NCBI GenBank assembly: GCA_002104985.1
Contig: MCGO01000148.1
Coordinates: 1 to 64,000 of the forward strand
DNA length: 64,000 bases
From: Rhizoclosmatium globosum
Lineage: Eukaryota > Chytridiomycota > Chytridiomycetes > Chytridiales > Chytriomycetaceae
Direction: 5' to 3'
A program made the translations under genes and the position numbers. Positions 41,501 to 64,000 of this stretch are shown one piece after another (position 1 is the stretch's first letter; the number at the start of each line of letters is the position of its first letter). The notes below the pieces were generated by a model. That model worked only from the letters and a program-made list of their open reading frames with translations. It searched no databases and was not told the origin of the DNA.

Positions 41501-44500
41501 TTCTCAAATGCGAGTTGTACTCGTCACCTGCAGAATAATAGTGACCGTACATATATACCATTGGGTTTCCATTCAATTGGTTCTTGGCACTGATCTGTCC
41601 AGCGGACAAGACCTTCTGAGTAGGACAGACAATCAATCCAATACCAATGATGAAGAAGAGGATCAACGCGTTCAAGAACGCAATGATGATACACAATGCA
41701 ACCTTTTCTCTCCAAGCCATTCTACGATCCGCAGACTTCATCCCAGCGCAAGACAAGAAAATGGATGGAATCCACCAGGTAAGTCCCCATGTGAAGCAGA
41801 CCCAAACTTTTCGACCAGCCTTGACTTTCTTTCCCGTAGACAATTCACTCTTCTTCTTGCTCAAGAGTTGGTTCTGCAACAGACGACCCTGCTCAGCAGC
41901 ATCGGTTGCATCCATCTTCTTGAGAGGAATCCCTCCGAGACCTCCAAATTCACTCTCGTAGTGAGACTCAACGTCTTCTCCGATACCGCCAATGCCGTAC
42001 TCTGTCTCAGCTCCGTATTCACTCTCAGCACCTCCCATAGCAGCGTGTCTTTCAGCTTCCTCGATTTCGGCGAGAGAGGCTTCAAGGGACCACCAAACTT
42101 GCTCAGACAAGAAAATCTTGGTGGTACCGACTTTGGCGAGGTCGTCAGTGTGTCCATAGCCGCGACACACAGCTTCACACTGGTTCTTGGGGCCACCTTG
42201 GATGGCAGTGTAATCGCCAACCTGAGAAAGGATGACTTGATGGTATCTGGCGAGGAAATCGGCATGCTTATGTGCAGCTGAGTAGAGCAGTGATGTCGCT
42301 TTGCAAAGGGTTGGCAAGCAGAAGGCATTCAACTGGCGTTGAACCACTTGTGCATCAAATCTGTTTGAGTTGGGGTCATCCGACAGCTTGACGTGCAAAA
42401 TAAACCAAGGTTGGGTCTCTGCAAGAGTCTCAAGCACACCTTCCAGCGATGTTCGGAACTATGATGAAAAGGAGTTAAAAAACAATTCCCAAGAATAGAA
42501 TATAAACCTTCTGTCCAACAGTAGAATCCACACCAACAACTTCTCTCTTACCACCCTCCTTTCCACCTCTCTTCAAGCTTGGGAATCGACTCTTTTCCAT
42601 AGCAGCAACAACAGTTCCAGCATCACCCGCGTGCGTCAAAGTAGCCACCATCCTGTCAGAAAAAAGACCCCGCAAAAAGGCCGAAGAAGTACCCGGTTGC
42701 TCCGTGGTTCCACGAATCAACGAAACAAAGTCACTCTGCAAGACATCAGAATTCGCTTCCACAAACAGCTTCGCGTCATATTGCAATGTCGCAACTTCCT
42801 TGGATCCCTCGGCATAGTGAGTAACAGTGAAAGCGTGCTTCGTCTTTTTATCGCCATTTGGAAGAAGGTCAATGTACTTTTGGTATGGAGCAGATCCAGC
42901 CTTTGCCTCAGCTTCTCGAAGCCTTTCCATTAATTTCGAACCTTTTGTGCCGACAGCGCATTCAAGGTCGATGTGAGGAAGGAGTCCAAGGTCTCCATCA
43001 AAGGCTTCAACAAAGAGCTTTCTGTCAACAGGAAGAATAGCCTCTTCACGGAATCCTTCGGCGCGAAGAACGTCGCGAGGAAGAGTAATGACTTGGTCCA
43101 TCATAAACTGCTCGAGCTTTGCATTGGCATAGTTGACAAGAAGGCGGGAGAACCCATGTCCAGCCGGTTCTCCTCCTGGAAGAAGGACGTGAGGAGATAA
43201 AACAGTTCCAGGCAAGTCAACGAGAGCGATAAAGTTTGCCCATTGTGATTCCTCAGTTTCACAGAGAGCATTGTTGATTTGTTCAATGAGGTAACTGTAG
43301 ACGATTGAGTAGAGTGCACGAGCTAAAGCGTCACGCTGCTCAGCGGCAGCCTTCGCATCAAGGAACACTGAGATTTTGTCTTTACGAATCAATTGAGTTT
43401 TGTAAGTGAGGATGGATTCGAGGGTTGATGGATGAACTCCAAGGAGGTCAGCCACCAAAGAAAGTTGATGAGTGTTTTTGATTGAAGCCGGCTCGTCTTT
43501 CTTTTCACCATCACTATCAACGAATGCAATGTTTCCGAGATGAAGGATGGCAGACAAGAGTTGGAAGAGTTGAGTTTGGTGCCGTGGCCCGATTCCAACA
43601 CTCTTTAATGCTTCACGAAGGGTTTCGAGAGTAAGATCGTCTGTAGAAACACGGCGAATCGAAGATGTGTTCAAGTAATGATAATGTGCCGAACTACAAA
43701 TATTTGGTTAGTTATTTCCCATGGAATTGCTCGCTACATTTTACAAACACGCATGTTGCTTCGCAAAAGATCGTTCGCTGTGCTCACAGAACTAATACTC
43801 GGCATAACGGCAACGAGCTCCGCTCGTAGCCTCGCTACGCAATTTGCTCCGCAAAAGATCATTCGCTGCACTCACATTTCCAGTCACACATTTGCTCCGC
43901 AAAAGGTCGTTGGCTGCGCTCACACAACAATTAAATTTCGCCATGACGGCAACGAGCTCCGCTCGTAGCCTCGCTACGCAGTTTGCTCCGCAAAAGGTAG
44001 TTCGCTCCGCTCACATTTCTTTGCTCACAACCGCTTCGCTCACAACCACTTCGCTCATGACCACTTTGCTCATAACCGCTTCGCACACACACTCAACTCT
44101 CCAAGCTGCCATTGAGTCTTCTCATCAGCCGATGCACCTTCGAGCAACAAGTAAAAAACATGAAAGTTGCAACCAGCATCGACCGAGGCACCAGAGACAC
44201 GAGACTTGTCGAGACCAAGATCAATAACCTTGACACCACAAATCTTTGACTTTTTGTGAGAGAATTGGAATTCGTAGTAGGTTCCTGAACAGGAAGCGTT
44301 TGAGTTTGTGGGAGTGGCAGCACGAGTAAAAGCGGCGAGGATGGTGTCGAGTTTGAGGATTGCAGAAACGAGCTTTGACTTTTTGCGTTTTGTCATTGGA
44401 GTTGAAGGGGAAGGTTTGAGGGTGGATATTTCGCAGAGATGGCGGGTGAGTAATCTTCTTGTTTCCGTCTTTCCAGAGTTTGATTCACCGCTGTTTTGTG

Positions 44501-45045
44501 TAGACTGTTAGGAATCCAAGGTAACAAGGAATAGAAGGAATGCAAGGGTTGATGAAAAGGCAAGGCAAGGCAAGGCAAGGGGGGGTGTCATTTAAACAGT
44601 GATATGGCACGTACAGCAGGACAATCGCCTGGTCCTCGGCACTCTTTCGCACGTGTTCCCAGGCGGCGGCAGACACGTCGAGTGCCGAGTGGGAAGGCAG
44701 GGCGGCCGGGCGTTGGAGCAGCGGCGTTGTCTTTGCCCAGAGCGCGTGCGACTTTGCGGCGGCGTCGTTCAAGGACAAGGCCTTTGTCTTGGTTTGCTGC
44801 TTTGGCGCGACGAGAAGCCGCGATCCAACTACGAGCGCCTCGGCCTTGGTTGAAGTTGAACAGTCTTTTGTGCGTTGGACAAGGGCCTCAAGCGAGTGTG
44901 TTCCGTGGATGCCACTGCCACTGCCACTGCCACTCGCACTGGGGCCGAGCGTGCTCTCTAGCGCCGCACTCGACGAGAACGGATTCACTCTCTGCGCCTG
45001 AACCGGCATTGGTGGTGTTGTTGGCATTGGTGGTGGTGCGGCCAT
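38551..45045 (-). CDS. Class V chitin synthase with myosin motor domain
   Basis: Membrane enzyme that polymerises GlcNAc from UDP-GlcNAc into chitin at sites of growth. Order: Pro-rich start (ATG 45045), myosin head (P-loop GESNSGKTE near 44495, [40 protein letters not shown]), cytochrome-b5-like region with membrane helices, then the GT2 core with [52 protein letters not shown] and QRRRW (39707-39721), more helices, a Gly/Tyr/Ala-rich linker and a C-terminal DEK_C domain. Introns include 43694-44097 (404 nt, repeat-filled) and short ones near 44500-44610, 42461-42508, 40760-40806, 40385-40437, 40027-40099, 39366-39417 and 39175-39228. One frame change lies in the linker near 39070. The family is restricted to fungi and relatives. 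Confidence 0.92.
43694..44097 (-). repeat. Repeat-filled intron of the chitin synthase gene
   Basis: This intron (404 nt) is much longer than its neighbours. It contains a duplicated block around CAACGAGCTCCGCTCGTAG (43811 and 43950), with small palindromes (GAGCTCCGCTC, TAGCCTCGCTA). Several copies of GCTCCGCAAAAG are followed by TTCGCT..GCTCAC, and there are about four tandem 15-bp copies of CTTCGCTCACAACCG-type sequence (44031-44098). A related AGCGAAGCGAAC motif occurs in the NIC96 intron at 5729-5745 and 5775-5785. Confidence 0.8.
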
Positions 45046-45445
45046 CAATCCGTTTTGTGTCTTGGACGAGAAAGAAAGAAGCAACAGAAATGAACGAAAA
45101 AGGGGCTCCGCTTTGCTCCTTCGAGAACAAAAGAACCTAATTACAAACCTGAGTTCAATTAATAAGTACATCCCGTCTTCGAGTGTGTCTACATTAATAT
45201 GCATTCACTACTCTCTTTGAACTGGTCTGTCACATTAGAATCCACTCAATATAGGGAATCAAACCCTGTCAGAATGGGTTCGATTTCTTCTTGTTCTGCC
45301 GCTCTGAATATGTAATGGAGGAAGACTAGACCAAGAAGAAGGAAAATGCACAATAACATAATCGATAAACAATGTTTTGCACGCGATCCTGTCCTTTCTT
45401 TTTCTGGAACAGTGACAGCCAATCCAATTGATCACTTGTCCAAAA
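45046..45445. promoter_or_regulatory. Divergent promoter region, chitin synthase / phosphatase
   Basis: This 400-bp gap separates two divergent ATGs. It is AT-rich near the middle (45140-45370). No named regulator site was recognised. Short reading frames in it overlap on both strands and have no family match. Confidence 0.3.
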
Positions 45446-47394
45446 ATGCAGTCCATGCCACCACCGCAACCACCAACACCAACACCAAAGGACATTGCAG
45501 CTGTGTCCCGGACTTCAAAGACCCATCCAATTAACGTATCGTGGCTGTTTCCGCACACGGTCCTGGCTCCATCGCCAGACGGACCTTCTCCTTTGACTTC
45601 ACATCCAGATGGCATCACAGTGGGTTCCCCATCTCCTTGTCCTCATCAAATTCTTCTGAAAGCATTTGGTTTGCAGCCCAGAGACCTCCTCGATCTGCTT
45701 GGAGTCCCGCAGTCCCAATACCCAACTGGCCGCGCTCCTTCCTCGTCTGGTTACATTGGCGGCTTTCCGGTCGCACGCACCATAAAGTAACTATCTCAAT
45801 TTTGTTTAACCTCTTTTATGAAATGCAGTCTCATGTATTCCGTCATTGCTTTGCTTGTCTCTTGACACCCTGAATATGATGCCTCATTTCAAACGCGAAG
45901 TTAACTTCATAATATCATTCGACCCTGATCGTAGCCGTGAAGCTCTACCTCATATAATGCTTATCTATCATAATGGACGCGTGGAAATAATCCTTCTATT
46001 CTATTCCATTCCTTCATCACAATTCTTCAATTCCAACTCTGCGACATATTCTAACTTACATAACCTGTAGCCAACCAAAACCCGTCCATCTTACCTCCTC
46101 CCCAGCTCCACAAGCACGTCCACCACAACAAGCAAACACAACAACCTCAACAGCCCGCACATCCTCCTCAACCTACAAACCCAAAACCCCCTCCCCACAC
46201 CCAACAACCTCCCCCTCCCTCACCCACCTCCTAAAACCCTCAAAATCAGCCCCAACAACCTCAACAACAACCATAACCGCCACATTCACCCCCTCCACAA
46301 CACCATCCACATCCACATCCACAAGCGACCCAACATCAATCCACACAGCCCCAGACCGCACAGAATCCACACACGGCCGTGAAGCCATCGAGACCTTGGA
46401 AGCACTGGGAACCGACACGACAACCGCACCTGACGAAGACCTCGTGAATTCATCAGCGACACCAACGTCGACTTCAGACCCGTACCTCACGCTTCCCAAC
46501 GGCGTCATTGTGCGTGGGAACTTTGGCGCGTATGGCAACGTGGCGTTGAGTAGTTGTCCCGGGAAGAAGGTTCGGCTGGATACAGGTCCTGTGAATGGAC
46601 GTGGTGAGTTTTCGCATCTGTTTTGACAAGTGGGGGTGAAGGAAAACGGGGGTACTAATGTTTTTTCAAAATAGCTGCAATCAACCGAGACTTGGAATCT
46701 GATTTCGCACGGCTGTCGAGTTTGAATATCAAGTGTGTTGTGTGGTATGTTAAGTTCAACGGGGATAAAAAACAAGGGAATTCTAATTGAAGTGGATTTA
46801 CAGTTGTTTAAATGACAGTGAACTCTCATTTTTGGGTGCCCCTTTCCAAGTATATCAAGCGGCAGCTGCAAAGTTTGGAATGCAGATTTTACGGATCCCA
46901 ATTATTGAAGGCAGTTGTCCGGATCGAATTGAGGATGTTGTGGATATTGTTGAGCGGATTGATGGGTGGTTGCGAGGCGGTGTCAATGTGTTGATTCATT
47001 GTCGTGGTGGTGAGTTTTTCTTTTTGCGTTGAAAGGAGTTTTTATTGACTTGTCTGGGATGGGTAGGTGTTGGACGTGCTGGTTTGATTGCGTGTTGTCT
47101 GTTGTTGAGGAAACGGTTTGTGGAGAATGCCGAGAGGGCTATTCAAGTTGTGAGGCTACGACGGGTGAGTTTGGTTTTTTGTTTTTTTATTGGATGATGG
47201 ATGGTTTACATTGGTTTTAGAGTTTGAAGGCCATTGAAACCATGCGACAGGAAGACTTCATTCATGCGTATCAAAAGTATTTGGAAGAGACGAGAGGCAA
47301 TGATGAGGAAGAAGATGGGGAGAACGATTTGCCAACATTTCGAAGTGGTTTGGGGAGCAGTAATGATATATTTGAAGAGTGTGTAGAAGTCTAG
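45446..47394 (+). CDS. CDKN3/KAP-like dual-specificity phosphatase
   Basis: Predicted Cys-dependent protein phosphatase. The core shows the CDKN3 pattern: LSSCPGKKVRLDTGPVNGR, DLESDFARLSSLNIKCVVC, CLNDSELSFLGAP, LRIPIIEGSCPDRIEDVVDIVERI, then the P-loop VLIHCRGG-VGRAGLIACCLLL (HCx5R split by an intron after RGG, 47009-47066). In animals CDKN3 dephosphorylates the T-loop of CDKs; the substrate here is inferred. A 340-residue N-terminal extension comes first: exon 1 (45446-45787, ending VARTI) joins across an intron of about 283 nt (GTAACT...CTGTAG, to about 46070) to a long Ser/Thr/Pro-rich linker. Other introns are about 46606-46674, 46745-46801 and 47164-47220. The C-terminus is acidic (NDEEEDGEND). 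The start is the first ATG of exon 1. Confidence 0.78.
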
Positions 47395-47490
47395 GAAACG
47401 TCTTGTTATTTATTAGCTGCTTATTTATCAAAAGATTCGCTTAACTTATCTTAATGTTCATGAAGAAACCAGGGTGTTCTGGAAAATTCG

Positions 47491-48318
47491 ATGGGGTTGA
47501 GATTCGGCAACTCAAAGAACGGGGAAAACCAACCTCTTTCCTCCTCGAATACTATGTTCATCAACCGCCATGCTCCACCACCACTTCAAGCTTACCCCTA
47601 TACCCCAGTTTATTCCGCAACTACCACGTCGCCTTTGGCTCGAAAGAGAGGGCAGTCATCCTACGATGAACCATCAGCCAAACGCACCCACTGGACAGCC
47701 TCTTCGCCTCCTCGCCAAGTACCGAAACTCCCGCTGAAGTCAAGCCCACGTATCCCGCAGCCAACCACTATCCCTCGAATCTCTCTCAAACGAACACACT
47801 CTGACGAAATCGACTCAACGTTAGAACAGCTATCCCTCACAGACTATCCGCCTCAACCACCCCTGAAACGCACCTGCTCCTCAAAGGAACCTACTTTCAT
47901 AACATCGCAAGCACTCATCCCCTTCTCCTTCCACAAACAGACACCACCTACCCAAACGCCACCTCCATTCCACCACACAGACAACCCCTTCACAATGGAC
48001 GGCGTGGAACAGTGGGTCTACCACACCGCGTCAACACCATCTTCCTCAACAGACGATGACGACGAGGATCGGAGTGATGGTGGAAGTCTCGTGGACCTTG
48101 CAAATGGGTTTGAGAGGCTTGGAACCAAGACGGTGCCTGGAGCTAGAACGCCACCATATGGGCAGGTTGTTTTGTACCGACCCTTTGGAATTGTTGTTGA
48201 GCCTGGGGATGAGAAGGACGAGGAGGAGGTTGAAGTGGGGGTTGTTGGAAAGGGGTGTAAGATTGAGGAGGTTGAGGAGGATGAGGAGGAAGAAGTTGCG
48301 AGTATGGAGTTGGATTAA
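47491..48318 (+). CDS. Hypothetical disordered protein, paralogue 1
   Basis: A protein of 275 residues in one exon, family not recognised. It is low-complexity: Pro/Ser/Thr-rich with basic patches (ARKRGQSS, AKRTHWTASSP), a conserved block LKRTHSDEIDSTLEQLSLTD (residues about 100-119) and a very acidic C-terminus (EEVEEDEEEEVASMELD). Basic patches suggest nuclear entry. The block recurs in the next gene, so the two are probably tandem duplicates. It lies 96 bp downstream of the CDKN3-like phosphatase. Confidence 0.6.
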   Translation: MGLRFGNSKNGENQPLSSSNTMFINRHAPPPLQAYPYTPVYSATTTSPLARKRGQSSYDEPSAKRTHWTASSPPRQVPKLPLKSSPRIPQPTTIPRISLKRTHSDEIDSTLEQLSLTDYPPQPPLKRTCSSKEPTFITSQALIPFSFHKQTPPTQTPPPFHHTDNPFTMDGVEQWVYHTASTPSSSTDDDDEDRSDGGSLVDLANGFERLGTKTVPGARTPPYGQVVLYRPFGIVVEPGDEKDEEEVEVGVVGKGCKIEEVEEDEEEEVASMELD

Positions 48319-48627
48319 GCGTGGGTTTTTAGGGAGTGGATAATTGAGGGGAAGTATTTGTGGAAGTGTGTTTGGGATTGCACAAGAGCGCGTAGTGGTA
48401 TACAACGCGTTTGTTATTTAATGATTTGAATTATATGGCTATAAAGAAAATTAAAGAATTGTTTGTTGGATGGAAAGGTGCCCAAGCGCAGTATCCCACG
48501 CTCCCATTGTTCAAGTTCTTTTTCTGGATGTGTGGCGTCTCCTTGTTCTGAGCGCCTCAAACACAGAAAAGTGTCAGAAACTAATAGAACCACAACCACC
48601 ACCACAACTACCTTGAGCGACACCGAA

Positions 48628-49203
48628 ATGGACTTTGAGACTCCGTTCCTGAACCCTCCACCAATTGATTCCTTCACTGCGGAGCCTCGAGCCCGACACC
48701 CAAACTCGCCTGGTCCTCAACACCGTTCCCGTGCAACTTCAACTGCCGCCCTCCAAATAAACCAACAACCAAACTTTGGATTGATGCGAAAACGCCACGC
48801 TAGCACAGAATCAAACGGCTCATCTACGTACAACTACGACGGAAAACGGGCGAGGAATACAAGCCATAGTCCATACAGCTCTCCATTGGCAGCACGGAAA
48901 ACCAACCTCCTTAAACGAACACGCAGCAAAACTTCTGAAATCGATATTGAACGAGCCTTGCTAGACCTGTCGCTCACTGAACGAAGTCATGGGACTAGTT
49001 CACCGGCTCCGAAACGAACGAGTTGGACAGTACAGAATCCACTGATATTTGCAAAGGATGGGAACTTTGATGGACACTTTAATTTCAACTTTAATGTGAT
49101 TATCGCGACACCGGATCCTGAGCCTGCTGAAGAAAATGTGGAATACACAAGTCATAAGGCGTTGATTCAAGAGGCGTTGAGGAGGTTGGAGGGGATGGAT
49201 TGA
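48628..49203 (+). CDS. Hypothetical disordered protein, paralogue 2
   Basis: A protein of 191 residues from ATG 48628, single exon, family not recognised. The segment LKRTRSKTSEIDIERALLDLSLTE corresponds to the LKRTHSDEID...LSLTD block of the preceding gene. Both also have a K/R-R-(T/A) patch earlier (DGKRARNTSHSP here) and a PxPKRTSW/AKRTHW motif. The C-terminus is different and mildly acidic. The frame is open upstream to about 48463 without an ATG, so a longer protein through an upstream exon is possible. Confidence 0.55.
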   Translation: MDFETPFLNPPPIDSFTAEPRARHPNSPGPQHRSRATSTAALQINQQPNFGLMRKRHASTESNGSSTYNYDGKRARNTSHSPYSSPLAARKTNLLKRTRSKTSEIDIERALLDLSLTERSHGTSSPAPKRTSWTVQNPLIFAKDGNFDGHFNFNFNVIIATPDPEPAEENVEYTSHKALIQEALRRLEGMD

Positions 49204-49359
49204 TTCAACGTATGTCTTACGTGAATGTATATTACTCTTTTCTTCGCTGCTTCTTGCACGTACAAATTAAATACTTCTCCACATTTTCGCCACTGGAAAT
49301 GCCATAAATCGCTGATAAATGGCCACATGTTCAAAAACTCTGATCCAAAAAGCACAAGC

Positions 49360-51164
49360 ATGTTGTCCAAATTCCTGAACAGAAGCTCAGCTCCACCACA
49401 GTCCCCACAGCAACAACGTAGTTCCACAACGACAGCTGGTCCTGTCTTTGTGTCCTTCGATGGAGTCAAGAAGTCGATATTGGTGGATGAGTTCACGACT
49501 GTCTCCCAATTCCTGGTCAAAGCTGAGGACAAGTTCCAGCCAGCAAAAGGATCTCTTTCAAGAGCATTTCATCATGACGGACACAGCCAAGAGGCGGAGC
49601 TGGATCCACAGGATCTTGTACTTCCCTACGTCGTGCGCCCTGGAGCATACATCATAGTCCGTACCGAGAACGATCCGATTCCAGCCGCGATTCCACAACC
49701 ACAACCAGTTTCTGTTCGTAAAAAGCCTCAGCCGGTTGAATCACAATCAGTTCGTACGCCACTATCTGTCACTCAAATCCTAACAAGTCCACCACTTAAT
49801 CGCGGAAACACTCGAATGGACGCACCACTCAGTTCCGTCACTCCAAGACTACGGGCTAATATTTCGTCCCTTGGCGACGATGAGACATTTGTTGCTTTGA
49901 ATAGGGACGCCAAGAAATATGGTGATTTAGACGTTATGCTGTCAATCAATTGCGAAACCATGGAAGAGTCCGCTCTTTGGCTAAAACAGGAACTGGAAGC
50001 ACGTGGTGTCACGGTTTGGGTGTGTACCACTGAGTTGAAGGGTGGCGCAAACTTTAGGGATGATATTTTCCATGCGGTGAAAGGATGTCGAGTTATTATT
50101 CCGTTTATCAATGAGAAGTGGGCAAATTCTGGGGAATGTGATTATGAGGTATGAGTGTTTTCGGTGTATTTCTAAGAACTTAACTCTTAAATTTTAAGTT
50201 TGCACTCGCCATTCGTACAAACTTTATTTCTCACGATTCAGGAAAGACTCATCGCGTTGTGCCAGTGGAAGGAAAAGATGGACGGTCGTATGCAGTTCCT
50301 GGAATCCGTCGTCCCGCATTTTTACCACTCAAATTCCCTGACATTCAATGGACTGCAAAACCCGCCATTGAACAACTGTCTTGCTCAACCAATTTTATTG
50401 TTTGCGACGGGACAAACTTGCTCGACCCTGAATACCAGAATCTGATTCTGCCAAAAATCCTTTACGGCTTGTATAATCTTGGAATTGCTATCACTCTATT
50501 GGAAAGCGATCCTCCCATGATTCCAATGACCAAGCGATCCCTTCAACACACAACGAATCCCATTGAACTTGCCCAACAAGTCATCACTGGAATCCAATAT
50601 CAACTCTCCAACTCACAAGACTTGTTCACCCTCGTCTCAAGGCATCATATTTCCTTCGAAAACACAATGAAGGACTTTGAATTGGAGAGCTTGTACGAGA
50701 ATTACCTCGGATACTCCGCAAACGACAGAAACGGATGCCACACTATTTGGAGCTTGGAGTTCAAAATCAAGAAAATTGTCACGTGGGAGGAAGGCGACGA
50801 TGTTCCGTTTGATGTGAGAGTAACGGGGACGTTGACTGCGAATTTGATGTCACTCTCCGAAAACCCAAACCCGACAAGGGAATCTGATAAAGAATATGCA
50901 CGCCTTAGCCCGTATGTTGATAAACAAGATGCAACAGCGGTGGCTCAATTGTCGGGAACCTTTTTCCGCAGGAGGGGACTTGTTTTGTTGGATGCGGACG
51001 AGATAGTATCACCGCCTGGCTTACTCACGGAGTGCAAATATCGATTGGTACTCCAGCATGATGTTGATGGTACTACCTCAGAGTCTGGGAGACAGGCGCT
51101 TGGGTTGTTTTCGGCGAAAGAAGGGAATGAGAGTGATTTTCCCCCCTGTTTTGCCCATAAATGA
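49360..51164 (+). CDS. TIR-domain protein 1 (divergent copy)
   Basis: Two exons (49360-50148, 50199-51164), about 584 residues. Residues 25-105: beta-grasp-like module (PVFVSFDGVKKSILVDE, FHHDGHSQEAELDPQDLV). Residues 105-175: Ser/Pro linker. From residue 185: TIR domain with LDVMLSINCETMEESALWLKQEL, VTVWVCTTELKGG, GCRVIIPFINEKWANSG and ECDYEFALAI, whose Glu lies where TIR NADases carry their catalytic Glu. The C-terminal 250 residues match the other copies (QQVITGIQYQLSNSQDLFTLV, LECKYRLVLQHD-type strands) but have no known family. The intron (GTATGA...TTTTAAG) follows DYE exactly. The last residues differ from the paralogues after a C6 run at 51140, perhaps a frame change. ATG 49360 aligns with the paralogues; ATG 49327 is in frame upstream. 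Confidence 0.82.
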
Positions 51165-51233
51165 CAAGTTATGTTTATATTAATAATAAGCTTGTTGAGT
51201 GTCCCTTATTCAAGCATTTTTGAGTCCGCACAA

Positions 51234-53077
51234 ATGTTTGCCAAATTGACCGAAACCATCACTGGCAGATCCACTTCGCCTTACACAACGCCCCCGGTGT
51301 CCCCGAAAGCGCCAAACGCGTCAACTATTGAGCGCCCTGCATTTGTCTCCTTCAACGGAAGCAAGAAACCTATATTTGTTGATGAAACTACAACCACCCT
51401 TGATCTCCTCCGACTCACCGAAATCAAGTTCAAGCAGCCTGACGGATCACTTAAGACGGTATTCCTTCATGATGGTCACAGTCAAGAAGCAGAGCTTGAC
51501 GGTGATGACCTAGTGGCTCCTTATATCAGTCCCGGAACTTATTTGGTTGTACGGAATGAGATGGAGAATTCACCAGAGCCTCCGCGAGCGCTTGTTCCCA
51601 ATCCAAATACGTTGAATAATACCGCAAATACTACTCAACGAAATGAACTCGTTTCAGCGCACACAGACATACCAAAACAAAATCACAGCCCACCACCAAC
51701 AGCAAGCACTAACTCTCTAAAGCCATCTTCCACAGCGGAAGACGAGGCTTTCATTGCATTACATCAAGACGCTCTTAAATACGGAAATTTGGACGTGATG
51801 TTATCCATTAACTGTGCGACGATGGAATCTTCGGCCCTTTGGTTAAAGCAGGAACTTGAAGCGAGAGGTGTTTCAGTTTGGGTGTGCACCACTGAATTGA
51901 AGGGCGGAGCTAATTGGCGTGATGATATTTTCCGTGCAGTTAAAGGATGCCGTGTTTTGATTCCATTTATTAACGAGCCGTGGGCTAATTCGGGAGAATG
52001 TGACTATGAGGTATCTTTGAGTGTTTGTGGGTGTAGTTCCTTTAACATGATTTGTAGTTCGCTTTAGCAATTCGTACCAACTTGGTATCGCATGACTCGG
52101 GAAAAACACAGCGCGCGATTGTTGTTAATGGAAAAGATGGATCGTATGCTGTTCCTGGCATCCGTCGTCCCGCATTCTTACCACTCAAGTTCCCTGATAT
52201 TCCGTGGACTGCCAAGCCAGCTGTCGAGCAACTCTCCTGCTCTACCAATTTTATTGTCTGTGACAGCACTACCTTGCTGGATCATAAGTTCCAGGGGTTG
52301 ATCCTCCAGCGTATCCTACATGGGCTTTACAACTTGGGAATTAAAATTACGCCGTTGGCTGATGACTCCCCAATTCTTCCAGTGACCAAAAAGACCGTTC
52401 AACCAATGACGGACCCAGTAAGTCTCGCACAGCAAGTCATTACGGGGATTCAGTACCAGCTGTCCAACGCTCAAGATCTGTTCACCCTTGTATCACGCAA
52501 TGGTGTATCGTACGACAACATGCTGCGAGAATTTGAGATTGACCATTTGTTTGACGATTATCTTGGGTACTCCGGAAACAACAGAAAGGGCTGTTACGCG
52601 ATTTGGAGTCTTGAGTTCAAGATTGTTAAGGAATTGGGTCCTGATTGGAAAGAAGGTGATGACGTTCCATTTGAGGTTCCAATTTCAGGAACTATGATTG
52701 CCCACTTGATGTCTGTTACAAAAAAGAAGGAAGGTGATCCTGAGACGGATGCGGAGTACAGCAGATTGAGTCAGTATGAAGACAAGCAAGATAGTAAAGC
52801 TGTAGCAAAGTTGAAGGGATTCTTTTGCAGACGTCGCGGGTTGGTGTCTCTGGATGAATATGAGTTGGATACTCCTGTTGGGATGATTCGCGAGTGCAAA
52901 TACAGAATTGTGTTACAACACGACGCGGATTCTGCTCTGCCATTGAATAACGAAAAGTTAGAAGGGGATTCTAAGCAAAGAAGTCAGTCTGGGAAAGTTG
53001 CGTTGGGGTTGTTCAGTCCAAAAGTGGGCAACCCTGATGATGAGTGGACGTCAGTGATTCGCCTTGTTGCACAATAG
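51234..53077 (+). CDS. TIR-domain protein 2 (intact)
   Basis: Two exons (51234-52010, 52058-53077), 598 residues. It starts MFAKLTETITGRS. Residues 35-110 are the N-terminal module (FVSFNGSKKPIFVDE, FLHDGHSQEAELDGDDLV), then a Ser/Thr/Asn linker. The TIR domain starts near residue 185 (LDVMLSINCATMESSALWLKQEL; VSVWVCTTELKGGANWRDD; VLIPFINEPWANSG; ECDYEFALAI) and continues to about 340. A C-terminal domain of about 250 residues follows, with EFEIDHLFDDYLGYS, CYAIWSLEFKIV, a charged loop, KGFFCRRRGLVSLDEYEL, CKYRIVLQHDAD and a tail WTSVIRLVAQ. It begins only 70 bp after copy 1. A function in NAD+ cleavage or TIR signalling is inferred. Confidence 0.88.
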
Positions 53078-53280
53078 AGATTTTATAGGATTTTTTTGTG
53101 TATTTGAAATAAACATTGATTAGAGTAATTCAAAGAAACCGAGGTAACCTCCCTCATTTCCTCGTCATCTGCACAAGCTTGATAAGGATGAATTTGCTCT
53201 TCTGCCATTAATCCATGATGGAAATGTCATCTATGACTTGTCATTGGGGCCCTTAAATTTCATAAGTCCGACATTCAAAA

Positions 53281-55132
53281 ATGTTTGCCAAATTGAGCGA
53301 CACTATCGCCGGCAGATCTCGTTCCCGCGACACGAGAGCTCAGTCTCCCTTCACGCCCCCATTATCCCCCAAAACTCAAAATGTGTCAACCATCGAGCGC
53401 ACTGCATTTGTCTCCTTCAACGGAACCAAGAAACCAATTCTTGTAGACGAGACCACAACCACCCTCGACGCCCTCCGACTCACTGAGATCAAATTCAAGC
53501 AACCCGAAGGATCACTCACAACGGCATTTCTCCATGACGGCCACAGCGAGGCAGAGCTGGAGAGTGAAGACTTAATTTTCCCTTATATAACTCCTGGGAT
53601 TTACCTGCTCGTTCAAAACGACAAGGAAAGCAAGTCTCCAAAGACTCCGCAGCTGGTAGTGAGCGATCACGAAGCATTGACACCTCTCCAGAGTGTTGTG
53701 ACTAAAACTCAAGAGACTGAACATGGTTCGACTCTCACTCCCAAGCCGTATCGCCCTGCACAGTCAAGAGCATGAAGTAACTCTCCAAAGCCATCTTTGG
53801 TTGATGACGAGGCTTTCGTCGCATTACATCAGGATGCACTCAAATATGGTAATTTGGATGTCATGCTATCCATCAATTGTGCGACGATGGAAACTTCCGC
53901 GCTTTGGTTGAAGAAGGAGCTTGAAGCTAGAGGCGTCTCTGTTTGGGTGTGTACCACTGAATTGAAGGGTGGGGCCAATTGAAGGGATGATATCTTTCAT
54001 GCTGTTAAGGGATGCCGTGTTTTGATTCCATTTATTAATGAGAAGTGGGCGAATTCGGGGGAGTGTGATTATGAGGTATGAAGTTTTAGTGCCTGATGTC
54101 TTATCTAACACAATCTTAAAGTTCGCACTTGCGATTCGTACAAACTTGGTGTCTCACGACTCTGGAAAAACTCAGCGAGCTATTGTTGTGAATGGAAAGA
54201 ACGGATCATATGCTATCCCAGGAATTCGTCGCCCTGCTTTCTTGCCGCTCAAGTTCCCAGATATTCCATGGACCGCCAAGCCAGCGGTTGAGCAACTCTC
54301 CTGCTCCACCAACTTTATTGTCTGTGACAGTACCACCTTGTTGGATCTGAAATTTCAAGGGTTGGTTCTCCAGCGCATCTTGCATGGACTCTATAGCCTT
54401 GGTATTAAAGTTGATTCATTGCCGGATGATTCCCCACTAGTCCCAGTCCGTGCAACCAATAACGGATCCTGTGAGTCTTGCACAACAAGTCATTACGGGG
54501 ATTCAGTACCAGCTATCCAACGCTCAAGACCTTTTTACTCTTGTTTCGCGTCACGGAGTGTCATATGACAATATGTTGCGTGAATTCGAGGTTGAACACT
54601 TGTTTGATAATTATCTGGGATATTCTGCGAATGACAGAAAAGGATGTTATGCGATTTGGAGTCTTGAGTTCAAAATTGTTAAGGAATTGGGTCCTGATTG
54701 GGAAGAAGGTGGTGTCGTTCCGTCTGAAGTCCCAATATCGGGGACAATGACAGCGCATTTGATGTCAATTAACTAAAAAATAAGGACGGTAATGTAGAGA
54801 CTGAAGCAGAGTATAGCAGATTGAGTCAATATGAAGACCAACAAGAAATTAAGGCTGTAGCTCAGTTAAAAGGAGTGTTCTATAGACGTCGTGGGCTGGT
54901 TTTATTGGATGCCTTTGAGCTGGACACACCAGTTGGAATGATTCGTGAGTGTAAATACCGAATTGTCTTGCAACATGATGCGGATTCTGGCAACTCTTTG
55001 GATAACGAAAAGCCAGCTGGAGAGGAGAAACAAAGAAGTCAGTCCGGAAAAGTTGCGCTGGGTTTGTTCAGTCCAAAAGAAGGAAACCCAAATGACGAAT
55101 GGACTTCCGTAATTCGCCTTGTCGCGCAATAG
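53281..55132 (+). pseudogene. TIR-domain gene 3, pseudogene
   Basis: Same layout and intron (54076-54121) as the other copies but broken in several places. A frame change and stop end the first part after PYRPAQSRA (53775). A TGA replaces the conserved Trp of GGANWRDD (53980-53982). The C-terminal domain is shifted near 54450 (after SPLVPV), and a stop follows LMSIN (54774-54776). At least four lesions, two of them stops outside homopolymers, show decay rather than read error. The N-terminal module and part of the C-terminal domain remain well conserved, so loss was recent. Confidence 0.88.
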
Positions 55133-55235
55133 TTGATTTCGTGTCTCTAAATAAACGTCTTAACTTGAAGTACGAAATCAGATCCAAAAAAAATTATTTT
55201 CCAGGTGACAATTCTTGACAGTTCGCGCCGACACG

Positions 55236-56933
55236 ATGCAGCCAGCCCCGCCCGCCAATCCACTCCCCAAAACAACACAAACAGCGTTTGTCTCATTTGG
55301 AGGAGCCAAGAAACCAATCGTCATAACCGCCACAACAAAAACCTCAGACCTCCTCCGCTTGGCCGAGACGAAATTCGGGCAACCAACCAACACCTTCGTT
55401 TCCGCGTCTCTTCACGACGGACACAGCCAAGAAGCCGAGCTTGATGGTGATGATCTCGTTTCCCCCTTTCTCGCGTCACCAGGAACTTGGATCGTCGTAC
55501 AAAGTGCATCAAAATCCGTCGCGCCTGTAACTAAATCTGGAAAGACGCCGACGGAGCCAAGTGACGCGAAGGGGAAAGCCGCGGGGAATACTAAATCCAG
55601 TATAGAGGAAGACGAGGCTTTTATCGCGTTGAACAAAGATGCTATGAAGTATGGCAACCTTGACGTGATGTTGTCCATCAATTGTGCGACGATGGAAACT
55701 TCCGCGCTTTGGTTAAAGCAGGAACTTGAAGCTAGAGGCGTCTCTGTTTGGGTGTGTACTACGGAATTGAAAGGTGGTGCGAATTGGAGGGACGATATTT
55801 TCCATGCTGTTAAGGGATGCCGTGTTTTGATTCCATTTATTAATGAGAAGTGGGCGAATTCGGGGGAGTGTGATTATGAGGTATGATCTTTGTGATAACA
55901 TATTTTTTTAATCCGGTGCTACAAGTTCGCACTTGCGATTCGTACAAATTTGGTGTCTCACGACTCTGGAAAAACTCAACGTGCTATCGTTGTCAATGGA
56001 AAGAACGGATCATATGCTGTTCCTGGAATCCGTCGTCCCGCATTTTTACCACTCAAGTTCCCAGACATTCCTTGGACAGCCAAGCCAGCTGTCGAGCAGC
56101 TTTCTTGTTCGACCAACTTTATCGTCTGTGACAGTACCACCTTGCTGGACCTTAAATTCCAGGGCTTGGTTCTTCAACGCATCTTGCATGGACTCTACAA
56201 CCTCGGAATTAGAATCAATCCATTGGCTGATGATTCTCCATTGGTGCCAGTTACCAAAAAGACGATGCAACCCGTCACAGACCCTGTGAGTCTCGCCCAA
56301 CAAGTCATTACAGGAATTCAGTACCAGCTGTCCAACGCACAGGACTTGTTCACGCTTGTCTCGCGTCAAGGTGTTGCATATGATAATATGTTGTGTGAGT
56401 TTGAGTTGGAGCACTTGTACGGGAACTATCTAGGGTATTCCACGAATGATAGAAAGGGGTGTAGTGCAATTTGGAGTCTTGAGTTCAAGATTGTAAAGGA
56501 ATTGGGCGTGGATTGGAAAGAAGGTGATACCGTTCCAATTGAGGTGCCCATCACTGGGACGATGACGGCTCATTTGATGTCAATTATGAAGAATAACGAC
56601 GGTGACACTGAGGCTGATGCAGAGTACAGCAGATTGAGTCAATACGAAGACCAAGAGGACATTAAGGCTGTTGCTAAGTTGAAAGGTGTGTTTTATCGAC
56701 GACGTGGGTTGGTTTTGTTGGATGCGTTTGAGTTGGATACTCCTGTTGGGATGATTCGTGAGTGCAAATACAGAATAGTGTTGCAACATGATGCGGATTC
56801 TGGTTCTTCAGTTGATGGAGGAAAAGAGACGCGAAGAAGCCAATCAGGAAGCATGGCACTTGGGTTGTTTAGTCCCAAGGGAGTGAGTGGACCAGACGAA
56901 TGGACGTCTGTAATTCGACTTGTTGCGCAGTGA
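55236..56933 (+). CDS. TIR-domain protein 4 (intact)
   Basis: Two exons (55236-55880, 55926-56933), about 550 residues, shorter linker than copies 1 and 2. N-terminal module: FVSFGGAKKPIVITATTKT, LHDGHSQEAELDGDDLV. TIR: LDVMLSINCATMETSALWLKQEL, VSVWVCTTELKGGANWRDD, ANSGECDYEFALAI with the putative catalytic Glu. The C-terminal domain is as in copy 2 (EFELEHLYGNYLGYS, KGVFYRRRGLVLLDAFEL, CKYRIVLQHDAD, WTSVIRLVAQ). Its TIR block is nearly identical in DNA to that of pseudogene 3, including the first intron bases, which suggests gene conversion. ATG 55236 is the first in-frame ATG. It lies 103 bp after pseudogene 3 and 147 bp before the anoctamin gene. Confidence 0.88.
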
Positions 56934-57080
56934 ACACTTTTAAACTCTTTTCTTCTACTTGTTTATGCCTTTTCTCTAATTGAGTGTTGAATGGATTTTG
57001 GAGTTCGAATTGAAGTTCTGCCGATGTTCTATTTTTTATTGGCGATCTTTCAATGTTGAACCTCTTCTTGAAAAAGAAGT

Positions 57081-60000
57081 ATGAGCGAACCATCAAAGCC
57101 AGTACCACCACCACTCGGACCACCACCACCACAACCGCCTTCAGTGCCAGCAACACCGACATCGCCCACGCGTGCAACACCGCAACGAGGCGCATCGCTG
57201 CCGCCTGGGATCCAGACGAACATCGAGACTGCTGCATCGGCTGTTGCAAAGTTCCGCAGTGTCGCCCTGGCCGCGGCTGCTGCACGAAAGGCATCGATTC
57301 GGGAAGAGTGGGTTCAACTTGTTAAATAAGCTGGTTGTTGAGTTCTAACGAATGAAACAGCGAACCAATCCTCGGCCTTGTAAAAGAAGACCCAACGAAA
57401 CAGAAGCCACTCAGACACACTCAAACCATCTCAGCCGCCGCTGTCGCCACCTCAGGCCGCTCCGCAAAGGCCGATGCGATCCGGGCGAGGACCGTGCGTC
57501 GCGAACGATCGGCAAAGAACTCAGTCGTCCACATTGAGCCATTCGGAATCGGCTCGCGGCCCCAAACACTCTCGCACAAACAAACTGTCATTGGCCCGCG
57601 AATCCTGGACTCAGATCCCCTGCGTCTTTCTGCCACCGTCCATCCATCTCAGTCGTCTGTTCTCGACGCAAAAAATACCCTTCGTTCCCCTTTGAGGCCA
57701 TTGTTAAGCCCAGACAATGACGACCAGGATATTGTCCGGCCCATCGTCCAATCCCCTCAAAAACTAAAGATTGACACGTTGTTGTCCGCACAACCTCAGC
57801 ATTTGGACTCGGTCGTGGAATCCCCTTCTTCATTGAACGATGGCTCGTCTGAATCTGAAAACGCGGCCGCGGATCCGGTTGAAGTTCTCGTCAGTCAAGA
57901 AGATTTAGCTGACATGGATCAAGTAGTCTTGCGCCAGATTTCTCCTCATAGACATGTTAAGTTGTATTATGCAGAAGATATCAAAGCATTTGATCAACTC
58001 CTTGCATGGAGTCAAACATACCCGGAAAAAACAAAAGATCAAGCTTTGGAAGAATTTTGTCCAAAGATGCGATCTGGGGATGCCCTTGTCTCTCTCATCT
58101 ATGGCGTGTCTGAATGGGACTATGTGAGTTTGCACGTTATTCACTGTGTTGATGCTAATCTACAATACACAGGTCCTAACATACAAACATAGTCATACAG
58201 ACCATGAACACTCTGCAGCTATTCGCGATTTGTTTGAAGAAAAGCTGCTGAAACATGGAATCTTTCTTGAAATCGAGCATTCCCAGGATAAGGACCATAC
58301 TTACTTCGTTAAGGTCCTGACACCATTCCATTTTTTGGTTATGGAAGCATACAAGATGGGTCTTCAGTTTCCACTAAAGGTTTGTGCCAAAATAAGCCTA
58401 GATACACTTTAAACCTAACTTCCATAAAGGAACCTATTCACTCCCTCGATGAAGACGCCCACCCTCCAGAGCAAAAACCAGCACTCTTTGGTCTCATCTC
58501 CCCTTACCACCTCAACCTCAACAAACATACAAGTACTCTCGACCCCCACGACCTCTCCTCCTTCGAATTCAAACTCGAAACCCCCACAAACGAGCAAGGA
58601 TATGTCTGGGCGAACGTCAGTGACCAACCATGCCATATTGTCCTCACCCAATTCTTTGAACGTCGATACCGCCTCCTCCTCGCCCACCACGTTATCATGG
58701 CCGTTGACGTGAAAATCAAAACGAGTATGGGTGTTCGTATTGAAGGAATCAATTACTTAATTGCGCATCACGTGTATCATGATTTCTTCCCTGTACATGG
58801 TGTTGATTCTGACTCTTCTGCGGAGAGAAAGTATCAGAAGAATGCGTGGCGTAATGTTACGATTAAGAAGCAGGACGCGAAAAAGAAGGAGGTTGTTCCA
58901 TTGCGAACAAGGTTGTTGAGGGATTGGGTCTATGGACCGCTGTTTGATGTGAAGCCTATTGAACTTGTGCGTGAATATCTTGGGGAAGAGGTGAAGATTT
59001 GAGGCTTGTGGTAATGCATGTAATACTCACTCTATCCCCCTTTAGATTGCCTTCTACTTTATCTATTTAGAGTACTACAACCGATGCTTGATTTACTCGT
59101 CCTTCTTTGGACTTGTCGTATTTATTTACGGAATTGCAGATTACTTTGTGAAGGAAGCATCAGGAGGTGACAGCACAACTTCATCACCTGCAGAGAAACT
59201 TCACCGTCGTAGCGCCGCCGAAGTCGCGTCCAGCGGTAACTCAAGCGACGCCACTGGAGGTGTGCATCAAACCACATTACCACCTGAAAATTGGAAGGTG
59301 TTGTTTGATAATGCGCTTACACCCTGGTTCGCGTTCGTCATGTCGCTTTGGAGTGTCATTTACGTGATTACATGGATGCGTCGATGCAAGTACTATGCAT
59401 TCAAATGGTCTATGCACAATCATGAGCCACCACCGATTCGACGTGTTGAGTTCCGCGCTGTTGGAGTCAAGAAGAGTCCCATCACGAACAAATACGAATT
59501 GTATTACCCGGAAGAATCACGAACGATTCGAAAATTGATTTCAGGTCTTGTGATTCTTGGGTTCTTTGGAATTTCGTGTAGTTCGGTGATTTTACAGATT
59601 CTGCTTATTTTGCATATGGAGGATCAAAGGTACGTTGAGCAGTTGATTGGGTTCTCGGCGGCTATGCTTGCTGTGTTGTTGATTCAGATTTGTCGACGTC
59701 TGTTCCATCCTATTGCGCATATGTTGAACGAGTGGGAGAATTATCGTACTACTGAGGAGTTTGAGCAAGCTCTTGTAACGAAGCAGTTTGCGTTTGAGTT
59801 TGTGAACATCTACTGTCATATTATTTACTTGTAAGAGGATTTTTTTCTCATTGCTGAGCTGTGTCTAACCCCCGTCCCTTTAATAGTGCCTTCATCCATC
59901 CCCAACTCAAACGACCTACACTCTTTGGTTTCGATGTACACACAAAATGCAGTGAAAAGGACGTTTGCTCTGCTGACGTGATTATCGAGCTCCTCGTCAT

Positions 60001-61155: not shown

Positions 61156-64000
61156 ATGCATATCAATGAAGTGCAAATGACACTACTTGCATTACTTCCC
61201 GTTGTAACAGCGATTGGTGTGAATCTAGACGCCTCCATCGATTGTATCAAGTTGAATTCAAAATGGCCAGACGTTGATATCAATCAGTGTTTGAGTGGTG
61301 TTGTGTAAGTTCATGATACAGTGCTTTGCCCTTATTTGACTTCACTTCAGCAATCTTACAGACATCAACCTGAAAGACGATTTTCCAAATCATCTTCCTT
61401 CAGGTCTTACCAAGCTGTTAGTAACAAGACTGCGTTTTTTTGCGTCTTGAACTCCTTCCCTGACTTGCTACATTCAATAGGCGTATTCAAAACAATAGAC
61501 TCACAGGCAGCCTGCCAAGCCAGCTCCCCGACGCACTTACTTCTTTGTGAGCTCAAGAAACCCCGTAGCCTTATTTGTTTGACGTCTTTCTGTTGCAGGG
61601 TTGTTGTGGATAACTAACTCACTGGACCAATTCCTGACGTATTACCCACAAGTCTCAACCACTTGTACGCTGAATTCTTGTTGTTAGCATTCTAAATAAT
61701 GTTCTGGTACAGGGATCTCGCCAAAAATCAATTGACTGGATCTATTTCAAACAATGTTCCCACTGCCATCACCTACATGTATGTGTTGAATCAATCGCTT
61801 TTTTTAAACTATGACTGACAGGTCTCTTGCCAACAATCATCTGACGGGATCACTTCCAGAAAATCTGCCTGCTCTCAAACAAATGTAAGTCTCCATTACT
61901 TATTTTTACGAACTATTACATATTCATCTTCTCTCAAAGTGACATTTCGAATAATCGATTTACCGGTCCAGTTCCCAAATCTTGGAATTTCTCAAAGTTT
62001 GATGCTTTGTAAGCATATTTAGCGATATTATTTGACACTAATTCAAAATATAAACAGTAACCTACGAAACAATTTACTGACGGGTTATATTCCTGAATCA
62101 GCCTCTAAGGAAAAACTTGAAGGATTCGCCGGCAATTGTTTTATCAATTCCCAAGAATATGGTCTTGTCTTGAATCCAGGGTGCCCTTCAACTTTAAATT
62201 TGCGTGAGGAGTTAGTCATCATTGTAACCGAAATCGCAACTGCTTTCGATACTGTAGTTGAAAATGAAACTACAAATGGTTTACAAGATGATGTGGACGT
62301 TGTGGAAACTGAAGCCACCACTAGCACCTTTGAAGAAGAAACTCTGAGCTATGAACCTGAAACCGAAATTGCAACGGGAACAATTGAGGATGAGACCACT
62401 TCAGACGCCGAATCAACTGTAGATGAAACAACCACAGACTCGGAATCACTTGATGAGACCACTTCAGACTTGGACTCATCTGATAATACAACCACTGATC
62501 TTGAATCTTCAGATGATCAGACCACTTCAGTATCTTCTGGGGATGAAACAACATTTGACTCGGACACAAGTCTGGAACCCGATTTATCGACAGATTCTGC
62601 ATCCAGTGACGTTACAGAAACAGCTGAACCTTCTCCGAGCAGTGGAGCAGAGACGGTTCTTGACTGGAACGATTTTATCAATACCGAAACGATACCAGAA
62701 TACATTTCTCTCCCTCCCGTTGAGAGTGACGTCGCGCAAGACATTGTAAATTCATTCGGCGATCAGCTCCAAGATACTCAGTATCAGTTGGACTCTGATT
62801 CACTTGTAACATCTTTGGTACAGAAAGATGTCAGCTTACAGCCTGGCTCTCCGACAACGTTTTCAGTTCCTCCAATTCAGAGTGGCACGTCCTCAGATCT
62901 AAACGGAGACGTATTCGTGTTTTCTCTCGAAAGCTTTAATATTACTAATTTGGATATGACAACCTCGCGAAAAGATATCATTACATCGTTTTCGGGGAAT
63001 ATTATGCGAGTATTCATGGCACTTGAATCAGCAATTACCACTGAATGGGTTGCGATGCAATTGGCAAGCGATCGTTCAAATCTGGCTATTTCAATCAACT
63101 CGGAGAGGCAGTTGCTCGCATTGTAATATTGCAATTTCTGGTGAATCTGGAAGACGCGATGGAACCAACGTAAATGGAAAGTTTGTAAACGGAGTTTCGC
63201 CACTGTCACTTCAGCAATCAGTGTCTATTGATACCATAGTGATTGCAACGATCACTTCTGACTCACCTAAAGTCTTGGATGGAACAGTTCCAGCTATCAG
63301 TGACAAGGAATTTGTACAAAATGCGACGGCAATTGTTTTGAATGCTGTGCCTCCTTGTGTTAACTCTTGCCAAAAATTGGCAGGTATCCAAATCGTTTGT
63401 GGTAACTACTGCTCTAATTTTCGGACAGATTCCAAACTTTGCTATATTCAAAAAGAATGCATCAGTGGAAACACTCGATAGAACTTGCCAAAGCGTCACT
63501 CCTTCCGTTCTTGACGATTACAAAAAGTGTGCAAATATGAAAGTTGGATGTGATAGTAGCGTATCTAACAAAACTGCTGTTTTTGTCCAGCTGATTTCTG
63601 ATCTCTGCGATAAGTTTACACAACCAGCGCCTGTTGCAGTAGCCACCAATCAAACCATCGCTTTCTCCTTCAACAAAACAGAAAATGCAACCCTACTATC
63701 ATTTGATTACTCGGTTACAGACATACACAAAAACACTATTGCAGGGACGGATTATCAGATCTTTTCAAAGCGTGACTTGGACTTATTGGAACAGATTCCA
63801 TTCACATTCCCAGATTGTAACCCTGTCACAGTTCACATGAAATACGCTGTATGTGATTCTGCTATTATTGGTACAGAAAAGTGCGATGGGGAGGTGACAG
63901 GGCATTTGAAGACTCAGGAGTTGGACCCCAAAAAGGTTCTTGGAAGCGGGTTTGACGATGAGACCTGTCGTTCAAGTATAATGACGGCAGCTCCTATCAA
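61156..64000 (+). CDS. Secreted LRR protein, partial at right edge
   Basis: ATG 61156 opens a signal peptide (MTLLALLPVVTAIG), a short Cys cap (DCIKLNSKWPDVDINQC) and then about six plant-type LRRs, each on its own exon of about 70 nt: LTDINLKDDFPNHLPSGL, NNRLTGSLPSQL, LTGPIPDVL, LAKNQLTGSISNNV, LANNHLTGSLPENL, ISNNRFTGPVPKSW and LRNNLLTGYIPESA. A Thr/Ser/Asp/Glu-rich stalk follows (62270-62650), then an unassigned Cys-containing extracellular domain running past 64000. Introns after 63000 include 63170-63214 and about 63396-63432. An in-frame TAA interrupts the third LRR exon (about 61613) and a frame change lies near 63110, so the copy may be inactive or carry errors. An extracellular recognition role is inferred. 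The gene continues beyond the window. Confidence 0.72.

Follow-up and report, generated by a model that had tools for sequence, protein, structure and literature searches.

The TIR fold is best known from immune and cell-death proteins. TIR domains are said to occur in fungi (PMC7075850) and are reported in NLRs of Chytridiomycota (PMC9815663). Accounts of fungal immunity draw mainly on HET and NLR genes (PMC10197012), and the HET domain is presented as a remote fungal TIR relative (PMC4986451) which is sufficient for fungal cell death (PMC10197012). A 2026 preprint of a TIR atlas finds almost no fungal TIRs, all of them from Rhizoclosmatium globosum, and left out other previously reported fungal TIRs (PMC13142454). 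Here we analyse a stretch of 64,000 nucleotides of R. globosum contig MCGO01000148.1 (the window; contig C55 of the genome searched, G000, with 56,893,611 bases in 420 contigs). The strain is very likely JEL800, the one used in PMC12115818. The window carries a tandem array of four TIR genes at positions 49360-56933. Searches of the literature in PubMed Central, with most subscription papers and supplementary files outside their scope, found no description of this array or of its family of TIR and beta-barrel proteins. The best explanation for the array is a tandem gene family of old origin and vertical descent, whose products act in signalling inside the cell.

The four copies lie head to tail on the plus strand, three readable and one dead, and share a layout of N-terminal module (N-module), linker, TIR domain and C-terminal domain (C-domain). 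Copies 1, 2 and 4 are one-intron genes with spliced products of 584, 598 and 550 amino acids. Their introns (50, 47 and 45 bp) are all phase 0 and lie directly 3' of the GAG codon for the alpha-C Glu, which closes the motif SGECDYE. The gene models confirm a preliminary description, made from the letters alone, of four head-to-tail copies of one layout at this place; its spacing of 70-203 bp agrees with measured gaps of 69, 203 and 103 bp along the array. Copy 3 is a pseudogene: its exon 1 is interrupted by two in-frame stops, while exon 2 on the window contig matches as three overlapping pieces with further stops. In the window copy 1 ends in DFPPCFAHK and misses the stretch EWTSVIRLVAQ or EWTSVIRLVAE present in the other copies and in its own counterpart on contig C112 (EWTSVIRLVAE). 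The start of copy 1 is unsure, since translation might instead begin at an in-frame ATG upstream, at about 49330.

The 954,752-bp contig C112 carries a further array of four copies, collinear with the first (C112:918318-925880). The translation of its copy 4 is identical to R. globosum protein P0002 (BCR33DRAFT_711607), and its copy 3 likewise has two stops in exon 1, with exon 2 open. One copy was thus lost before the haplotypes split: with the two exon-1 stops on both contigs the loss is not new, and the dead copy noted earlier is confirmed. Both contigs are collinear at 96-97% identity over window positions 39199 to 58428, then at 92% up to 61555. Rpb2-type genes are found at five places and by score and extent resemble two pairs and one single, so some of the genome seems to be represented in the assembly by both of its haplotypes. 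On this basis the two arrays are read as putative alleles of one locus. At the right end of the window (61694-63960, compared with L068) identity to C112 drops from 92-97% to 71-74%, which suggests either that the alleles are highly diverged here or that the alignment passes into a paralogue.

The TIR domain of copies 2 and 4 matches Pfam TIR_2 with 40.3 and 42.0 bits at a cut-off of 28, and all six alignment members (6/6) match, in accordance with the earlier assignment. Structure prediction, named there as a check, returned a flavodoxin-like TIR fold for P0002, the copy 4 allele (14-row alignment), and residue 215, the alpha-C Glu, lies inside a predicted helix at 211-221. A first model (P0001, 8 rows) gave a poor TIR, with predicted local distance difference test (pLDDT) values by block of 31-76 over residues 171-330, and was replaced by the P0002 model. 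For the latter, the top row of Foldseek (RssB, E 5e-5, root-mean-square deviation 28 across 433 columns) was set aside as a composite alignment. When the profile of the TIR alignment was compared with solved structures, SARM1 was the best TIR (E 0.012). AIMP2 and lysozyme matched as well (E 0.1-1), and a match to k-cTRP5 (E about 1e-4), of which no stretch passes alone, looks like a repeat artefact. NCBIfam revealed nothing near its cut-off (best 20.5 bits vs 600) and PADLOC gave partial TIR matches, the best at E 1.4e-5. A prokaryotic source for the TIR was also sought; among 68 pattern-matching stretches, 5 loci reached 28-32% identity over part of the TIR, and no close relative was found.

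The N-module has no Pfam sequence match. Its predicted structure has a beta-grasp fold and matches the RA domains of RalGDS and RGL1 and the Afadin RA1 domain, and at similar score other beta-grasp folds (ubiquitin, ISG15, TBCE); we predict a ubiquitin/RA-like domain. The C-domain is predicted to be a beta-barrel; among the families listed in the structure matches of the model, the eight-stranded up-and-down barrel of lipocalin/calycin-like or annelid haemoglobin linker proteins is a candidate for its type. Stretches invariant in the C-domain include YLG, R.GC..W..EF and CKYR. In this genome the C-domain occurs in the arrays only, besides one chance row at E 0.4. The N-module is found outside the arrays only on contigs C371 and C392, again ahead of a TIR-like region, but the C-terminal part that follows is of another kind.

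Relatives of the array proteins span nine genera, with one database protein per species outside Rhizoclosmatium. The protein searches scored the top 7,997 and 7,993 candidates by shared words; copy 2 as query retrieved 8 proteins and a profile 12. The relatives from the profile search are three Rhizoclosmatium proteins and one each from Podochytrium, Chytriomyces, Obelidium, Siphonaria, Physocladia, Entophlyctis, Irineochytrium and Dinochytrium, whereas the twelfth match, P0012 (E 1.0), falls outside the family and has the look of a TIR protein from a bacterium. When the TIR alone was the query, a fragment of a protein from Chytridium lagenaria came up in addition, along with TIRs that were short or had no name. 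A taxonomy look-up of three of these genera places Irineochytrium and Dinochytrium in Chytridiaceae and Entophlyctis in Chytriomycetaceae, both families of Chytridiales. Seven annotated proteins (P0003-P0009) are without N-module, for which gene-model errors are possible: P0008 starts within the TIR, P0005, P0006 and P0011 miss TIR parts and P0011 is fused to a gelsolin-type protein. The proteins of Obelidium, Siphonaria and Chytridium start with MG[TAS]GAS, which we take to resemble an N-myristoylation signal. In a tree of TIR and C-domain (16 rows, four with long end branches) every Rhizoclosmatium row falls into one clade (100/100). Copy 1 branches first, and the pairing of copies 4 and 3 is weak (82/80). 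Copy 3 of C112, represented by exon 2 only, pairs with a partial R. hyalinum protein (99/98), and window copy 2 is identical to the protein of Rhizoclosmatium sp. JEL0117 across the TIR and C-domain part, so that orthologues of copies 2 and 3 are present in other Rhizoclosmatium.

Substitutions were counted after Nei-Gojobori in three allele pairs and five between-copy pairs, copy 3 being left out. Between copies, synonymous divergence (dS) is 1.36-2.75 or beyond correction. Nonsynonymous divergence (dN) is 0.04-0.13 in the TIR, 0.14-0.38 in the C-domain, 0.30-0.50 in the N-module and 0.95-1.40 in the linker, and the TIR dN/dS is 0.02, 0.03 and 0.05 in the three computable pairs. Between alleles, whole-gene dS is 0.075-0.083; dN/dS for copies 1, 2 and 4 is 0.20, 0.06 and 0.17 over the whole gene and 0.02, 0.02 and 0 in the TIR. 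Hence the family is old and its TIR is under purifying selection and strongly conserved, whereas the N-terminal half is held less tightly; allelic linker dN/dS of 0.62 (copy 1) and 0.65 (copy 2) speaks against uniform constraint. Allelic dS is uneven along the genes (copy 2, TIR 0.149 vs C-domain 0.013; copy 4, N-module 0 vs TIR 0.122), a pattern that past recombination or gene conversion might leave.

These values bear on the proposal of the preliminary description that the locus undergoes ongoing duplication and turnover. Its fullest form would be a family of recognition or immune receptors that evolves fast through birth and death of copies, the N-module and linker serving as recognition surface. 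Indeed these two parts are the most divergent between copies, the copy 4 alleles carry 7 nonsynonymous and 0 synonymous changes there (in 109 codons, a number too small for a verdict), one of the copies is dead and many TIR-NACHT genes reside in the same genome. We nevertheless consider such a family very doubtful. Between-copy dS exceeds 1.3 or is saturated, TIR dN/dS between copies is as low as 0.02-0.05, whole-gene allelic dN/dS reaches only 0.06-0.20, the loss of copy 3 is old and orthologous copies exist in other species; the marks of a birth-and-death cluster, low-dS recent duplicates or dN/dS >1, were not found. Ongoing turnover is thus not borne out. Given relatives in nine genera and the strong constraint on the TIR, a stable switch is favoured over an arms-race receptor, and the array genes look like a stable signalling part, not like fast-changing recognition genes.

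A mechanism for such a switch can be outlined. The ancestor would have been a TIR protein with a C-terminal beta-barrel, present in several Chytridiales genera. In the Rhizoclosmatium line it would have been joined to the ubiquitin/RA-like N-module and duplicated before the sampled species separated. The barrel may bind a ligand or partner and the N-module may localise or recruit the protein; on stimulation the TIR domains would self-associate and, once clustered, act on NAD+ via the conserved alpha-C Glu. The output would be a stress or danger switch; its role in stress or defence, like an immune role of the array, is what we infer. A ligand- or partner-gated TIR of this kind is our preferred reading, which we hold tentatively.

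What speaks for activity on NAD+ is the Glu. SGEC..E is one of the invariant stretches of the family, and together with the alpha-C Glu it is found in 13 of 17 database proteins (P0001-P0009, P0013, P0014, P0016, P0017); of the remaining four, P0010 begins past the motif, P0011 and P0015 are gene models without the stretch and P0012 differs in sequence. Several observations weigh against the gated NAD+-consuming switch. Most bacterial TIR NAD+ hydrolases (NADases) depend on a WxxxE motif (PMC11374754), but in the family the Trp position, four before the Glu, is occupied by Glu in 13/13 motif-bearing proteins, and the full WxxxE is absent. The Asp of the FID motif of SARM1 aligns with Cys in the family profile. 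In the model, residues 211-240 have pLDDT of 48-65, the Glu helix itself 57, and Foldseek returned no TIR row below E 0.001 (best 0.0059). The barrel is drawn from structure matches, and the C-domain sequence profile finds no solved relative; copy 1, moreover, has an allelic C-domain dN/dS of 0.51, which comes partly from its altered end. Finally, the TIRs of TLRs carry a similar Glu and are not known to be NADases; the alpha-C Glu alone therefore proves little. The earlier match of SGECDYE to the catalytic Glu of TIR NADases stands as to the position of the Glu at alpha-C, not as to its surroundings. After alpha-C the family has an insertion (RTNLISHDSGKT...PGIRRP), conserved and about 26 columns long, which the kelch-TIR relative P0016 is without. 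With Trp replaced by Glu, Asp by Cys and this insertion, the Glu of the family is retained while its surroundings have changed, and NADase activity is plausible.

The replaced Trp and Asp are also what would be seen if the TIR were a non-enzymatic scaffold, which assembles TIR with TIR or with a partner in a conserved non-immune pathway (e.g. small-GTPase/polarity signalling via the RA-like N-module) and keeps the Glu for structure. The structural likeness of the N-module to RA domains points the same way, and a stable cellular role fits the conservation across genera and the purifying selection on the TIR. However, invariance extends to SGEC..E, no partner is known and many other beta-grasp folds match the N-module with scores similar to those of RA domains. 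We regard such a scaffold as a serious possibility, though a less probable one than the gated switch.

The genome holds many further TIR domains. Of 101 candidates scored, TIR_2 matched 94 with an E of 0.01 or less, and 86 of these exceed the cut-off; merged within 1 kb they represent 92 places on 60 contigs, eight of which are the two arrays. Because the arrays are paired and other look-alike pairs are visible, distinct TIR genes are fewer than 92, perhaps about half. The preliminary description had called TIR proteins rare in fungi; the literature agrees, yet the 94 matches of R. globosum do not. There are also 34 NACHT matches, of which 24 are preceded on their own strand by a TIR at a distance of 235-527 bp, and some matches hold stops; in one place (L048) TIR and NACHT share a single open frame. 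By these matches the genome appears to hold a TIR-NACHT NLR repertoire. Such genes could act upstream of the array, if its products were self-toxic NADase effectors of cell death or allorecognition, HET-like in function and fired by an NLR without a sensor of their own. The description of HET as a remote TIR relative sufficient for fungal cell death (PMC10197012) counts in its favour. This reading is improbable: no genetic link of the locus to an NLR was found within the window, none being sought beyond it, and the C-domain is confined to the arrays.

Other TIR architectures were also seen: a TIR-Sel1 frame (L050), with Sel1 just below its cut-off, and a double-TIR frame (L037). In L037 and its neighbour L038 (C201:154547-165352), a long region without clear Pfam family, possibly helical repeats, is followed by two and one TIR domains, respectively, a layout loosely like SARM1. 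An open frame at L045 (C161:7307-10627) joins a PH domain (PH_10, E 3.7e-18) to a TIR; a near-identical frame lies at L046 (C389:47586-50906), the Pfam match being known for L045 alone.

Table 1. Coordinates of the array genes and their parts in the window, and of the two places elsewhere with the same kind of N-module.
Feature	Position	Strand	Remarks
Copy 1 exon 1: N-module, linker, first half of TIR	49360..50148	+	
Copy 1 exon 2: remainder of TIR and C-domain	50199..51164	+	final residues altered in window haplotype
Copy 2 exon 1	51234..52010	+	orthologue: Rhizoclosmatium sp. JEL0117, P0001, 99%
Copy 2 exon 2	52058..53077	+	
Copy 3 pseudogene	53281..55132	+	exon 1 two stops (both contigs), exon 2 broken up on window contig
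Copy 4 exon 1	55236..55880	+	
Copy 4 N-module, predicted ubiquitin/RA-like beta-grasp (residues 15-91)	55278..55508	+	models and structure matches
Copy 4 TIR, first part (residues 126-215)	55611..55880	+	ends with alpha-C Glu codon 55878-55880
Copy 4 exon 2: conserved insertion after alpha-C, TIR remainder (to about 56210), helix, C-terminal domain	55926..56933	+	
Copy 4 C-terminal predicted beta-barrel domain (residues 373-550)	56397..56930	+	model and structure matches
Gene with same kind of N-module, then TIR-like region and unrelated C-terminal part	L020 C392:8293-11547; L021 C371:9717-12971		

Elsewhere in the window, two tandem arrays of short units are located at 25798-36063 (about 35 copies of a 293-bp unit, 97% matches) and at 16589-18654 (294-bp unit, 7 copies, 99% matches). 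An Rfam scan of the window, the 293-bp array included, returned nothing at gathering score and an ARAGORN scan zero tRNA.

The family is a new architecture inside the known TIR superfamily. Occurring in several Chytridiales genera and among dozens of TIR matches, it offers a tractable saprotrophic model for fungal TIR function, and a natural test case of whether a TIR can still be a NADase when Glu has replaced the Trp of WxxxE. A bolder view, which we consider unlikely, is that of a new fungal TIR switch architecture across Chytridiales: a small-molecule-binding barrel would gate a SGEC..E TIR with altered active site, and the N-terminus would be a targeting module that can be exchanged, with a myristoylation-like start (MGxGAS) in Obelidium, Siphonaria and Chytridium and a ubiquitin/RA-like domain in Rhizoclosmatium. 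Fungi would then have their own counterpart of SARM1, here in a genome that also carries a TIR-NACHT repertoire.

Compared with known systems, the array stands apart from plant TIR-NLRs (L6, RUN1, ROQ1, RPP1) in having no NB-ARC match, a C-terminal barrel and old copies. From the fungal HET domain it differs by matching TIR_2, HET not being among the array's Pfam matches up to E 1. The array genes may be among the R. globosum hits of the TIR atlas, the available text of which describes no such architecture, array or relatives (PMC13142454). With fungal TIR-NLRs and the TIR-NACHT genes of its own genome the array shares the TIR domain and the S..C..E motif, but copies 2 and 4 have no NACHT or NB-ARC Pfam match up to E 1, the first TIR exon of NLR-type genes ends at a different site, and the Glu is preceded by SGEC in the array and by NC in NLR-type TIRs. 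SARM1, an ARM-SAM-TIR NAD+ hydrolase, has its TIR at the C-terminus, whereas that of the array is central; copies 2 and 4 show no ARM or SAM Pfam match up to E 1, and the family has the FID Asp and WxxxE Trp replaced and the insertion after alpha-C. Both have in common the TIR fold and the alpha-C Glu, and the conservation of the family suggests a similarly stable switch.
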